64,000 bases of DNA from Sycon ciliatum. Its lineage: Eukaryota; Porifera; Calcarea; Leucosolenida; Sycettidae. Positions 31,383 through 50,842 of the stretch are shown here, piece after piece. Position 1 is the first letter of the stretch, and each line of letters starts with the position of its first letter. Where the stretch lies: contig NC_088645.1 of assembly GCF_964019385.1 (NCBI RefSeq), positions 8,644,398 through 8,708,397 on the forward strand. The letters are read 5' to 3'. A program made the position numbers and the translations under genes. The notes beneath the pieces are model-generated. The model did not search any database and was not told the origin of the DNA. It saw only the letters and a program-made list of their open reading frames with translations.

Positions 31383-31691
31383 ATGACTACATGTACGTAC
31401 TAACATGTTTTTCGATTTTGACAGCATGTTACAATCGAAAAACATGTTAAGGTTAACTACCAAGCAAGGCTTCTGTATATACCATGTACGTACTAGTAGT
31501 ATTGTAGCTGTATTTGTGGATGTTACATTACAATGTAATTCATATGTTACATTTACCATTTACAATCATGTACAATCATGACGTAGTTTTTGACCAATGT
31601 ACATGACATCAGTGTAGAGTAGAATCGTGACGTGAGCGAGCACACCCGTGACTTGATGGTTTCCTGAATCCTGAGGCTATGTGGTGTGAGC

Positions 31692-31726
31692 CAGGGAGTA
31701 GTACAATACCATTGTACTACTCCCTG
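31692..31726. mobile_element. 35-bp CAGGGAG palindrome with exact 8-bp flanking repeats
   Basis: CAGGGAGTAGTACAAT...ATTGTACTACTCCCTG is a near-perfect palindrome. GTGTGAGC lies immediately on both sides (31684-31691 and 31727-31734). It is a sequence variant of the family (AGTAGTAC instead of AGTCGTAA). Confidence 0.9.
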
Positions 31727-32714
31727 GTGTGAGCCACCTCCGGAGCTCCACAAACACAACCATTGACATAGGGCACATGGTGTGTTGTAGACGGTAGTAT
31801 AATATTAATAATGTGATGATGATGGGCCGTTTTTGTTTTGTTTCGCAAATCCAAACGGGAACTTTCTTCCCAATACTGTAAACAAGGTAGCGAAGAGACA
31901 ATTAGAGAGGTAAGGGAAGAGGTGTTATAATGTAAAATGTGTGTTTATGCACTGGAAATCGGATAGTCAGCTGGAGATCCATTGTCAAGCATGGCATTAG
32001 TATAGCTTCTGTTGCAGCAAGGAATGCAAGCTGTCAAGGGGCACAGTCAGTGACAGATTGTGCAAGGACTTAGGAAGTTAGGTACTGCTGCAGCTTTGAA
32101 TTGAAGGTCTCCAGCGTTGTGCTGGAGCGAACTAACTTACTTCTCCTGGTACTGTAATCTGTTCCATTTTATCTGTAGCGCTGAAGGCAAACCTCGACTT
32201 GCGGCCAGCGTTCATTCTTGCAACTGGTGTACAGTCGATCTTATGTTATGTCAACAAAGTCAAAGAGTGGTGGTTGAAAGACTTCCTTTTTCTGTTGGCA
32301 GTGAGCATGAACCTAGCCAGGGTCCTGTGACTGTCATCACGATACACGGACCCTCTGGGACCGTCACCACGTACATGTAGATCTACATGTAACATAGCCT
32401 CATAGGGCTAGGGGATTCACACGACGTGAAAATGAACCGGAAAACACGTTTGTGTAGTTACATGTACACTGATCACAGCGGAACAGTGGAATACTTACAT
32501 GTACTAGTAGTACAGTGGAACCAAGGCGGGTTATGTACTTTTTAGTCTTGGTGGAACGCGGCTCAGAGTCAAGAAGAGGTTTTTGTCCCTGGTTTGCATC
32601 TTCGACGTGCCGATACATCTGTTTCGTACTTGTCCTTGTCAACGGTGCTCAGATTAGGAGTAGAAGCCATGACTAGTCTGCAGTCTGCAGTGCAGTGCAG
32701 ACTGCAGTGCAGTA

Positions 32715-33005
32715 GTGGCCGATCCGATCATACCCGACTACTCGCAGTACTCGGACTGTCGTAGACTGTACTTGCCGAAGGCGAAGGTGCATGATGACGT
32801 CTGCTGTCGGTTCTGGTTCTGTGTTACTCCTGTACCCGTCCGTGAATCTTTGTGCGATGCTTGTCGCGTTCGAGGTATGAATTGCGATCATACGAGTAGT
32901 CTGGCCGCGTACACATTTTCTCCTTTTGACAAGAGCAAGAGTGTGGTTTCCGACGAAATACGGGCAGTTTACCATGGTTTACTCTTTCATCCCGGATGTT
33001 TGTGA
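32715..33005 (+). CDS. Hypothetical small cysteine-rich ORF (96 aa)
   Basis: An uninterrupted frame starting MADPIIPDYSQYSD and ending YHGLLFHPGCL. It has eight Cys, including a CC pair and the run CDACRVRGMNC. There is no signal peptide, no recognised domain and no clear splice sites. It sits in an otherwise gene-free stretch. It is not low-complexity, unlike most chance frames here, but could be a transposon remnant or chance. Confidence 0.25.
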   Translation: MADPIIPDYSQYSDCRRLYLPKAKVHDDVCCRFWFCVTPVPVRESLCDACRVRGMNCDHTSSLAAYTFSPFDKSKSVVSDEIRAVYHGLLFHPGCL

Positions 33006-48154: not shown

Positions 48155-50272
48155 CTACAGCTTACTGCTGGGCATGAGTTTGCGGGCATGGCTCATCGGC
48201 ACGGCAACCGTCATCCATGCCCCACCGTCCACCACCATGGTTATACCGGAGACATAAGAAGCGGCTGGGCTGACGAGGAACACTGCGGCATTGGCAATGT
48301 CTGTGCGTGTGCCAAACCGAGCGAGCGGTATTGCTTGCAGCATGCGCTGTGCCATGGGAGACTTGCCGCCAAGCTTGTCGAAGCCCTCCGTGTCCTCGAT
48401 GGGGCCGGGCGACAAGGAGTTAACCCTGCACATCGCCAAACATATTAACATGTACAAGCATGTGCACACATCCACGCGCATATACGCAAATATGCACACA
48501 CATGAGCATGCACACATCCACACAGACACACACACACAAAAGATGACAAGCTTGCTGCACCGTTATATAAGAGGGGTTCCCCAAACCAGCAAAAATTAAA
48601 GAATGGGAGGAATGAAAGATTTGTTCCAAGGGAAAGGCCGCCAGCCCCGTTACAGTGCCTGCAAATCTAGAGATCTGGATTCTTGAGCACTTCCCAACAG
48701 TCTTTTTCTGCAAGGACCTCATTGGCACGTGTGTCATCCCCAGCAGACCAGTGCTCAGCTGAGCCAGGCATTCTAATATATACAGGGGCGCCCGACGCCC
48801 CTGTATACCGTAAAGTCGCGGATAAAAGCCGGGTTTGCATACAAGCACATTGTGGATAGAAGCCTGAAAATCAAACGGGTCAAATGCATATAAGCCTGTC
48901 GCGCGTAGAAGCCTGGCTTCTATGCAAGCGCGGATCGGGTAGGTCAAGAGTGCATGCGCTATGTATGGTGCATAGTAAAACTGCCGCCACACCGGTAGTC
49001 AGTGGTAGATATCTACGCGTGTCGCGCGCAGAAGCCTGGCTTCTCACTATGTGCATACAAGCCTGGCAAAAATATCAGTGGTGCATATAGCATGGTTTGC
49101 ATACAAGCCTGGTTTGCATTAAAGCCTGATGCAGAAAGCGGCTTATATCCTTATAAGCCCGGCTTTTATCCGCGACTTTACGGTATACACTATTAGAATG
49201 CCTAACCCGGATGAGCGCAGAAAAAAGAAAAGAAAGTCCAGTCCTACTTCCTATTGTAGACAGCCCGGCCAGCGGGTGACCGGACCTCCATTGCAGGGCA
49301 TGCTGTGACTGGCACATTCTCACATCCGTGCTAGTTCATCAATCGCTAAAGTTTCAAGCCGACAAAATTAGTCGTTTCTAATACAATCATGTACATTGTG
49401 CATGGTTGACTTTAGGCCACCAGCATACCGGTACTGTGTACGAGTGTAGCAAGAAGGACCCACGTGTGTGTGTGTGTGTGTGTGTGTGTGTGTGTGTGTG
49501 TGTGTGTGTGTGTGTGTGTGTGTGTGTATGACTGTATGTGTGTGTGTGTGTGATCCACGGTAGCCTAATCGGTAGGGCACTGTCCTGGAAATACTGCGGT
49601 GCTGGGTCCGAATCCCGCTCGTGGATCCTTCTTTTGCAACACAAGAGTACACGTCAAAAGACTATCTACTCACCTAACACCGCGGTCGCCCCACTCCACT
49701 GCCAGGTGACGCGTGAGAGCGTCAACAGCCGCCTTTGCTGCCCCGGCATGCGCCTGCAGTACATCACCCTTGTAGTAGAGTGTGGCCGAAATGTTCAGTA
49801 TCACACCACCGCCGTTCTTGCTGAAGCAACGGTCGTATACGCAGCGCGACAGGATGAACGAGCCGACCGCGTCGATATCCAAGACGGTTCTGAAGCCCTT
49901 CGGCGTAAGCGAATCTGCAGCACAGAGGAAGTTTCCCGCAGCCCCGTTGACTAGGATATTCACATGTCGGTTGCCTAGCTTGCTGAGCGCCTCGCGCAGT
50001 GCACTGTCCACCATTTCGCTCTGTCTGACGTCACACGGCGCAGCGATGCACGTGCGACCCGTGGCGCTGCTGAGCCGCGCCGCCGCTTCTCTGAGCCGCT
50101 GCTCCTTTCGGCCCATGATGATCGCGTCGCAGCCATGGCGCATGAACACCTCCGTTATGCGAAAGCCAATGCCGCTGCCTCCGCCCGAGATGAGGGCTAC
50201 CTGATTCTGGAGCAGATTCTCGCGGAACATGGGCTGGTACGAGTCCAAGCAAACATCACGGCTTTCCGTCAT
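48155..50272 (-). CDS. DECR2: Peroxisomal 2,4-dienoyl-CoA reductase [NADPH]
   Basis: Two exons (50272-49674 and 48425-48155) join in phase to 289 residues; human DECR2 has 292. The start MTESRDVCLDSYQPMF fits the family length; upstream in-frame codons lack similarity. It is a short-chain dehydrogenase that reduces 2,4-dienoyl-CoA esters during beta-oxidation of polyunsaturated fatty acids. The cofactor loop SGGGSGIGFRI is at about 29-39, the NGAAGNFLC segment at 109-117, NISATL at 160-165 and HAGAAKAAVDALTRHLAVEW at 175-194, with the conserved Lys at 180. It ends ...PSSKL, a canonical PTS1 signal, so peroxisomal import is expected. The single intron carries a nested MITE and a tRNA-like SINE head. 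No defect is seen. Confidence 0.97.
48767..49204. mobile_element. Nested inverted-repeat elements in the DECR2 intron
   Basis: An outer pair AGGCATTCTAATATATACA / TACACTATTAGAATGCCT encloses a 25-bp GC palindrome (48781-48805, TACAGGGGCGC...GCCCCTGTA) and a MITE at 48806-49186. The MITE ends are TACCGTAAAGTCGCGGAT and ATCCGCGACTTTACGGTA, with TA at both borders. The MITE interior repeats AAGCCTGG(C/T)TT motifs. Confidence 0.85.
49552..49628 (+). mobile_element. tRNA-like SINE head (not a functional tRNA)
   Basis: GATCCACG...CGTGGATC forms an acceptor-like stem, TAGCCTAATCGG is a good A box and GGGTCCGAATCC a good B box. The anticodon stem pairs poorly, so a pol III-type retroelement is likelier than a working tRNA gene. 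It is antisense in the DECR2 intron, 46 bp from the exon 1 donor. Confidence 0.65.
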
Positions 50273-50706
50273 GGTGCAGTGCTGCTGGTAATACTCCTTT
50301 GGCTCCAACCGGTTAGTCACACAATCACAGAATTGGGATGGATCCGTTGTAATTCGAAGGAGTAACCAAAAGTACACAGATCCACACTTGTTTTCCACAA
50401 GGCCAAGCGATGCGAAACTAAATTCTGAACACTTGAATCCACTGACTATGGCGATGAGAAGTATGCTAGTACCAGTAGGTATGAGCACAAGTAGCGTGCT
50501 GCAACAAATATTCCAAAGCAAGCCAAGAATGGCCAGATTGCAGAATGTGGAAACAGAAAAATGTATTCCAAACAGCAAATGGAAAGAAAAATCCGCTTCA
50601 ACCTTTGACATTGACACTGAGTCTGTCGGTGCACAGCCGCCAAGGCGTGCACATGCATCATAACGACTTTAACGTCATGACGTCAGAGTATACAGTACAT
50701 GTACAG

Positions 50707-50734
50707 CAGGGAGTCGTCAAATGACGACTCCCTG
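50707..50734. mobile_element. 28-bp CAGGGAG palindrome with exact 8-bp flanking repeats
   Basis: A perfect 28-bp palindrome (CAGGGAGTCGTCAA and its complement) flanked by ATGTACAG at 50699-50706 and 50735-50742. It is among the shortest copies and lacks the central TACCGGTA part. Confidence 0.93.
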
Positions 50735-50842
50735 ATGTACAGTTACAGGCTTGTGTGTGTGCACGTGTTTGTATGTGTGTGTGTGACTGTCTGTACTGTG
50801 TGTGTGTGTTTACTGTGTAAAGGTGTGTGTGTGTGTGCACAA

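Follow-up and report, generated by a model that had tools for sequence, protein, structure and literature searches.

What leaves a genome strewn with palindromes a few tens of base pairs (bp) long, many of them set between two copies of the same 8-bp word? The question arises from a stretch of 64,000 nucleotides of the calcareous sponge Sycon ciliatum (NC_088645.1, positions 8,644,398 to 8,708,397, forward strand; hereafter the window), in which there are nine near-perfect palindromes of 27–40 bp, of the form CAGGGAGTMGT...ACKACTCCCTG. The initial annotation read them as traces of transposition, each made of two fused inverted ends and accompanied by 8-bp target-site duplications (TSDs), and took them to be mobile in their own right, as elements of 28–40 bp and of hAT type. 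This interpretation is partly supported. The description as transposition traces with duplications and fused ends is upheld, but mobility of the short elements is not: a longer transposon has these same ends, palindromes of the matching arm type keep no more than 19–21 nucleotides (nt) of each, and their centres look like junctions. Very probably, in our view, the palindromes are scars of excision, closed by end joining, of a transposon whose cuts are widely staggered like those of the Drosophila P element, and each scar may record one jump and the repair of the break that it left.

All nine palindromes of the initial census were located, and at six of them (those starting at 31692, 34108, 35561, 50707, 59332 and 59371) identical 8-mers directly abut both sides, as had been claimed. 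To these can be added an 8-bp repeat offset by a short filler at two further palindromes (30361 and 60728), a repeat of 7 bp at 13567, and a third copy of one of the duplicated 8-mers, at 35542. The features are as follows (positions in the window; no strand is assigned to any of them):

3064–3101: decayed 38-bp palindrome with AGTAGT arms, no TSD
10978–11011: possible decayed palindrome, no TSD in the flanks examined
13560–13611: 38-bp palindrome (13567–13604), 7-bp CTCGTAC on either side
19801–19830: doubtful copy, its left half lying in a larger repeat also present at 4352–4601
30353–30413: 38-bp palindrome (30361–30398) with GTCGTCAAA arms, TSD CAGGAAAC at 30353–30360 and 30406–30413, the right copy preceded by the 7-nt filler CATGCTG
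31684–31734: 35-bp palindrome (31692–31726) with AGTAGT arms, TSD GTGTGAGC
34100–34153: canonical 38-bp palindrome (34108–34145), TSD TTCTGGAT
34619–34667: paralogous site without a palindrome, one copy of the 8-mer, TTCTAGGT at 34648–34655
35542–35606: 38-bp palindrome (35561–35598) with three copies of GTTTATGT (35542, 35553 and 35599)
50699–50742: 28-bp palindrome (50707–50734) with GTCGTCAAA arms, TSD ATGTACAG
59324–59405: paired palindromes at 59332–59362 (31 bp, left end TAGAG) and 59371–59397 (27 bp), with three copies of GTTCGAAC
60720–60785: 40-bp palindrome (60728–60767), TSD GTACAGTG, the right copy preceded by the 10-nt filler GTACCATGTG

Chance was rejected as the origin of these palindromes: with one mismatch allowed, the window contains CAGGGAGTCG 24 times, whereas its shuffled versions contain it 3.46 times on average, and none of 100 shuffles reached 24. 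The background of adjacent identical 8-mers in the window is 0.52% of positions, or 0.016% when low-complexity words are left out. Derivation from an ordinary larger repeat was also rejected, the sole suspect being the 19801 copy, on account of a left half shared with the larger repeat at 4352–4601. One of the two decayed copies first proposed stands as a palindrome, though without a TSD (3064), whereas the other (placed at 19800) is in doubt; and the contention that the palindromes are not pieces of something larger holds for ordinary repeats but not for transposons, the main arm type being the outermost pieces of one. That arm type is present in six of the nine window palindromes, the others having GTCGTCAAA (30361 and 50707) or AGTAGT (31692). 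The two arms of an element covary beyond random pairing (69 of 20000 permutations were equally good), which fits ends derived from different related elements.

Are such sites general in this genome? The strict pattern CAGGGAGTCGT N{2,20} ACGACTCCCTG matched the host assembly (538 Mb, 313 contigs) 1987 times, and its reversed control not once. Seven of these sites lie in the window, compared with 0.24 expected at the genome mean, although this is a weak figure since the window finding was chosen for its palindromes. Flanks were judged from the 50 matches listed, all near the beginning of contig C1; since one of them overlaps another, they represent 49 sites, every one of which was read (C-numbers denote contigs, and L-numbers genome sequences or sites read with their flanks). 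The adjacent 8-mers are identical at 26 of them, agree in seven positions at 7 and in six at 2, while two sites have 7-bp repeats, five have the 8-mer displaced by filler and seven have no repeat. When flanks were paired across sites, identical 8-mers appeared in only 1 of 2352 pairs, a single case that fits the duplicated pair L019/L020, so that the excess of identical flanking 8-mers expected in the initial annotation is borne out. The targets also show a preference: in 52 distinct exact 8-mers (a partly hand-typed set that takes in the full-length copy L093 described below and leaves out inexact repeats, L083, L085 and L087), T occupies position 2 in 40 and A position 7 in 38. A scan of some 200 kb for the arrangement 8-mer, palindrome, 8-mer (leaving aside sequences shorter than 3.1 kb and, in the others, the final 3.1 kb) gave 19 hits, of which 17 belong to this family, or eight of 10 after removal of the chosen sites; it was not unbiased, because its twenty 10-kb stretches had been picked for containing a site. 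The 49 sites are spaced unevenly along C1 (5 of 5000 random placements were as uneven). Elsewhere, the palindrome pattern had no match in viral contigs, and its matches in nine bacterial records of the contig search are taken as chance or terminators.

The centres of the palindromes are more variable than their ends. The 49 listed sites comprise 29 distinct sequences, a perfect 38-mer being present 14 times, a 27-mer five times, three others twice each and the rest once. A wider view came from a search for the 19-nt arm with any base except G after it, which gave 423 hits (215 and 208 on the two strands; control, none); 100 of these were listed, and 40 were chosen by hand and read by eye, 20 because the right arm was short or absent or an arm was repeated, and 20 to span the junction types. 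In the first set the flanking repeat is 8/8 at 11 sites and 7/8 at three, four have none and two are full-length left ends; among the 11, the repeats of L083 and L087 include the terminal G of the end, and that of L085 is of low complexity. In the second set the best match within 60 nt is 8/8 at 12 sites, 7/8 at three, 6/8 at four and 4/8 at one. The most telling sites are L078, L086 and L088, in which the left 19 nt are kept and the right stub is reduced to 2–4 nt (TG, CTG or CCTG), and yet an 8/8 repeat still flanks the whole; L080 has the same form with a 7/8 repeat, and so has L085, with the low-complexity repeat GTGTGTGT. Two intact 19-nt stubs enclose an insert of T, ATAT or ATTACAC at L097, L105, L108 and L112 (8/8) and at L113 (7/8), and a stretch of the right arm is repeated at L106. 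Overall, the joins are made by microhomology (as in the 27-mer and L078), by blunt ends (L030, L109) or with insertions of 1–15 nt (one base at L097, repeated pieces at L106), and second repeats of 7 bp are found at L026, L031, L083 and L087. The 38-mer itself can be parsed as a pair of 21-nt stubs that overlap by CCGG, or a pair of blunt 19-nt stubs, and the 27-mer as a 3-nt overlap. Variable centres between constant ends point to the joining of broken ends rather than to descent from a mobile palindrome.

A side observation concerns the fillers: L019 and L020, which are similar loci, have the same 41-bp palindrome and TSD, but 9 nt of filler precede the right TSD in one only, so that fillers can evidently be gained or lost after insertion.

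Two other explanations have to be set against these junctions. If the palindromes were ultra-short non-autonomous elements made of two fused ends, and a hAT-like transposase moved them in trans, the 8-bp TSDs and the target preference nTnnnnAn would be accounted for, but hardly the 29 sequences among 49 sites, or the TSDs that persist where the right end is nearly gone. Alternatively, a 38-bp palindrome might have been inserted whole and its centre rearranged later by cleavage of a cruciform or hairpin tip, which would suit the concentration of changes at the centre and the prevalence of the 38-mer. We regard this as very improbable: it sits badly with right arms of 2–4 nt between intact TSDs and with collapsed or filler pieces beside TSDs, arms of 19 bp are short for extrusion, and the stopping of the arms at nt 19–21 of the repeat of a longer element is left unexplained.

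What, then, is the longer element? Two of the five listed repeated-arm sites (L072 and L075) continue into common sequence, and reading of their neighbourhoods led to a pair of transposons, 2562 and 2576 bp long, at different sites (L092 and L093, to which L072 and L075 belong). They share a 32-bp inverted repeat, CAGGGAGTCGTAAAATACCGGGAGGCGACACG, with one extra 18-bp unit outside the left end, and are 99.2% identical over 1410 aligned bp and 97.4% over 921 bp. The TSD is exact in L093 (CTACAAAA) and 7 bp long in L092 (GTGGTAC; 8 bp with a shared G). The inner stretch of the inverted repeat, GGGAGGCGACACG, occurred (with at most one mismatch) only at L072, L075, L092 and L093 among 85 sequences totalling 309 kb. 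In palindromes of the main arm type the stubs end at nt 19–21 of this parental repeat, of which at most nt 1–21 are present. Moreover, the 18-bp left unit is doubled in the scars L073 and L074 too, which would follow if they were left by copies resembling L092 and L093. The existence of this longer parent with the same ends speaks against self-mobile palindromes, as does the finding, in the published portions consulted, that the hAT element Hermes needs considerably more than 100 bp at each end (PMC10368747).

A different candidate parent, of 430 bp (L015:4428–4857), was rejected, being by eye a 37-bp scar with a later insertion flanked by 3-bp repeats. The inserted piece is apparently an element of about 390 bp with ends AGGGACCTTTC and 3-bp repeats ATT, and the 37-bp scar is identical to that of L023 on the opposite strand.

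We propose that a cut-and-paste transposon of 2.56–2.58 kb with a 32-bp inverted repeat inserts with duplication of 7–8 bp (as seen in two copies), and that on excision its transposase would cut one strand at the boundary and the other some 19–21 nt inside the repeat, to judge from where the stubs end. The outermost 19 nt or so of the element would then stay as a tail on each flank, and host end joining, probably by an alternative, Pol-theta-type route, would ligate the tails to give TSD, stub, inverted stub, TSD, as the junctions suggest. Overlap in CCGG (self-complementary, nt 18–21) or blunt joining would yield the commonest 38-mer, a 3-nt overlap in TAC the recurrent 27-mer, and other joins would involve deletions, insertions of 1–15 nt or repeated pieces. 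Arms would agree within a scar since they derive from the matching ends of a single element. Scars with GTCGTCAAA, AGTAGT or GTACTCAAAC arms are assumed to have arisen likewise, from related but unseen parents. Scars would persist and accumulate, and local hopping may account for their clustering in certain regions.

The model for such cutting is the P element. According to the portions of the literature drawn on here, P transposase makes cuts staggered by 17 nt, after which each flank carries a 3' tail of 17 nt from the element end (PMC7776569, PMC2895639); fly excision products consist of TSD, stub, junction, inverted stub and TSD, the TSDs being of 8 bp (PMC2895639); and the repair joins include short microhomology, blunt and single-base joins, templated insertions, and deeper collapses with a 7-bp second TSD (PMC2895639). 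Local hopping is also described for P elements in the first of these sources (PMC7776569). The Sycon palindromes resemble the fly products (again PMC2895639, in part) in having 8-bp TSDs on both sides, fused and inverted outermost stubs, and the same classes of join, and the inverted repeats are of similar length (31 bp in P, 32 bp here). They differ in the stub (17 nt compared with about 19–21 nt) and in the end sequences, and whereas the P scars come from a laboratory assay, those of Sycon are natural copies in an assembly, from whose sequence the cut is deduced. The 8-bp TSD characteristic of the P superfamily is found here too (some sites having 7 bp). The element likely works like the P element; that it is itself one would be conjecture.

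Could scars of this structure have been made at insertion instead? Two broken end stubs might be integrated by transposase and only then joined at the new site, which would give the same order of TSD, stub, stub and TSD and the same diversity of junctions, and our data do not separate this directly from excision. It would however require stubs broken beforehand to a uniform length, for which we know of no precedent, and we find it scarcely credible. Excision products of the same structure are, on the other hand, documented in flies (PMC2895639, as far as that account was available).

Several sites in the window can be interpreted in the light of excision and end joining. Between copies 1 and 2 of GTTTATGT at 35542–35606 there is CAG, and between copies 2 and 3 a 38-mer; these could represent two events at one target, one of them more deeply resected, to 3 nt. 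At 59324–59405 copies of GTTCGAAC separate and border both palindromes, as though a palindromic target had been struck twice. CATG is contained in both fillers, at 30399 and at 60768, which are suggestive, though only that, of collapsed stubs, with the CA of one end and the TG of the other. The paralogue at 34619–34667 has left homology of about 26 nt to the flanks of the 34108 palindrome, and only a few nt on the right; on this sequence comparison it is likely to be the empty-site counterpart, which suggests that there was an insertion at 34108. Such an empty site would be welcome to the hypothesis of mobile palindromes, though excision scars predict one too.

Against the excision reading stand the following points. 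There is no TSD at seven of the 49 listed sites by the adjacent-8-mer test (among them L054, with a repeat outside a repeated arm, and L033, with inverted flanks), and no convincing repeat at four of the 20 sites of the first hand-picked set (L077, L079, L081 and L082) or at the five of 20 in the second that reach 6/8 or worse. The presence of one exact 38-mer at 14 sites out of 49 would also suit a self-propagating element, and so would the recurrence of the doubled form at both L073 and L074; even with these in its favour, we hold independent mobility of the palindromes to be unlikely. Elements whose left end has a single unit were not seen, the search pattern being one that detects doubled-end elements only, nor was any parent seen for the arm types of three of the nine window palindromes. 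Finally, no transposase was recognized: eight open reading frame (ORF) pieces of L092 and L093 gave no Pfam match better than an E-value of 0.027, nor any to the P-type (THAP) domain, and the two pieces searched against PDB had no sequence match. Since their ORF pieces lack Pfam or PDB matches, L092 and L093 may be non-autonomous. A structure prediction for one ORF (mean predicted local distance difference test score, pLDDT, 42) was not used.

Two of the sites just mentioned are unusual. In L054, read by eye, the left arm stands three times in direct orientation ahead of one right arm, between repeats TTTTCAAC, and at L033:4983–5020 the canonical 38-mer has flanks TACATGTTTGTAC and GTACAAACATGTA that are inverted rather than direct.

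How much of the original hAT assignment survives? Ends that start with CAGGG are compatible with hAT ends, and the 8-bp TSD with T at position 2 (40/52) and A at position 7 (38/52) is as in hAT elements. hAT excision, on the other hand, is known for leaving hardly any of the element behind, not 19 nt per end, whereas up to 19–21 nt of each end remain here if the palindromes are scars. The target pattern nTnnnnAn is that given for Hermes in the excerpts at hand (PMC10368747, PMC2803484). The genome is rich in hAT domains (150 scored matches of 422 candidates), but in four of the five hAT families whose ends were read these end in TAGxGxTGAAA, the fifth being undefined, so that the assignment, well matched in TSD and target preference, is unproven. 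Ends of the hAT families, all with 8-bp TSDs, are TAGGGGTGAAA, TAGTGCTGAAAC, TAGGGCTGAAAC and TAGGGATGAAAC (C5:11195308, C9:9529294, C10:7931503 and C1:61324254). TSD and target preference, then, fit hAT, the 8-bp TSDs fit P, and the length of the stubs argues for P-like cleavage. A bolder and decidedly tentative version would have a transposon with a non-P protein, perhaps hAT-like in its targeting, cutting with a stagger of about 19–21 nt, whose alternative-end-joined scars form a natural logbook of thousands of single jumps, with target, TSD and repair outcome preserved in each, and far outnumber the elements themselves.

Miniature inverted-repeat transposable elements (MITEs) also have inverted ends, TSDs and high copy number, and in these respects the palindromes are like them. 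They differ in lacking an interior, in their many junction variants and in the loss from some copies of nearly all of one end; instead of short elements with both inverted ends, copied by descent, we find 29 distinct sequences among 49 sites, and right ends of 2–4 nt that keep their TSDs. Stowaway/mariner footprints provide another likeness, of end pieces beside the duplication, but there the pieces are of a few nt and the TSD is of 2 bp. Such short element-end sequences beside the duplication are reported in the part of PMC4561436 that was available. Among the matches listed, no paper title reported natural genome-wide scars of P type, and no title of a transposon paper was found for the strings CAGGGAGTCG and CGACTCCCTG.

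We also draw attention to other features of the window. A second set of short palindromes, CAAGAGTWCAT..., occurs at 35503–35529 and 47093–47137, and also at L088, without clear TSDs, and these are possibly scars of a different element. Positions 24772–25228 hold an inverted repeat with 208-nt arms, 100% complementary, and a 41-nt loop. A 1.39-kb stretch with inverted ends AATAGACCAATCCCGAAAAG... (59452–60844) encloses the 60728 palindrome, and a 1.4-kb stretch at 12060–13460 has long inverted ends AATTTAAATTTCACAG...; pieces of a POMGNT1-like gene (Pfam ILEI and GNT-I) lie at 36030–39308.

If the palindromes are indeed excision scars, a single assembly would hold up to about 2000 natural products of end joining, in one strict form and from similarly broken ends, a kind of collection that has been obtained from crosses of P-element flies. 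An assembly could then be used to read the choice of repair pathway, the preference for insertion sites and the extent of local hopping. Tiny 'MITE-like' palindromes would be explained without any mobile mini-element, and repeats consisting only of terminal inverted repeats may in some cases have been misannotated as elements. Finally, the cut at about 19 nt would extend the cleavage mode of P elements to another transposon family.

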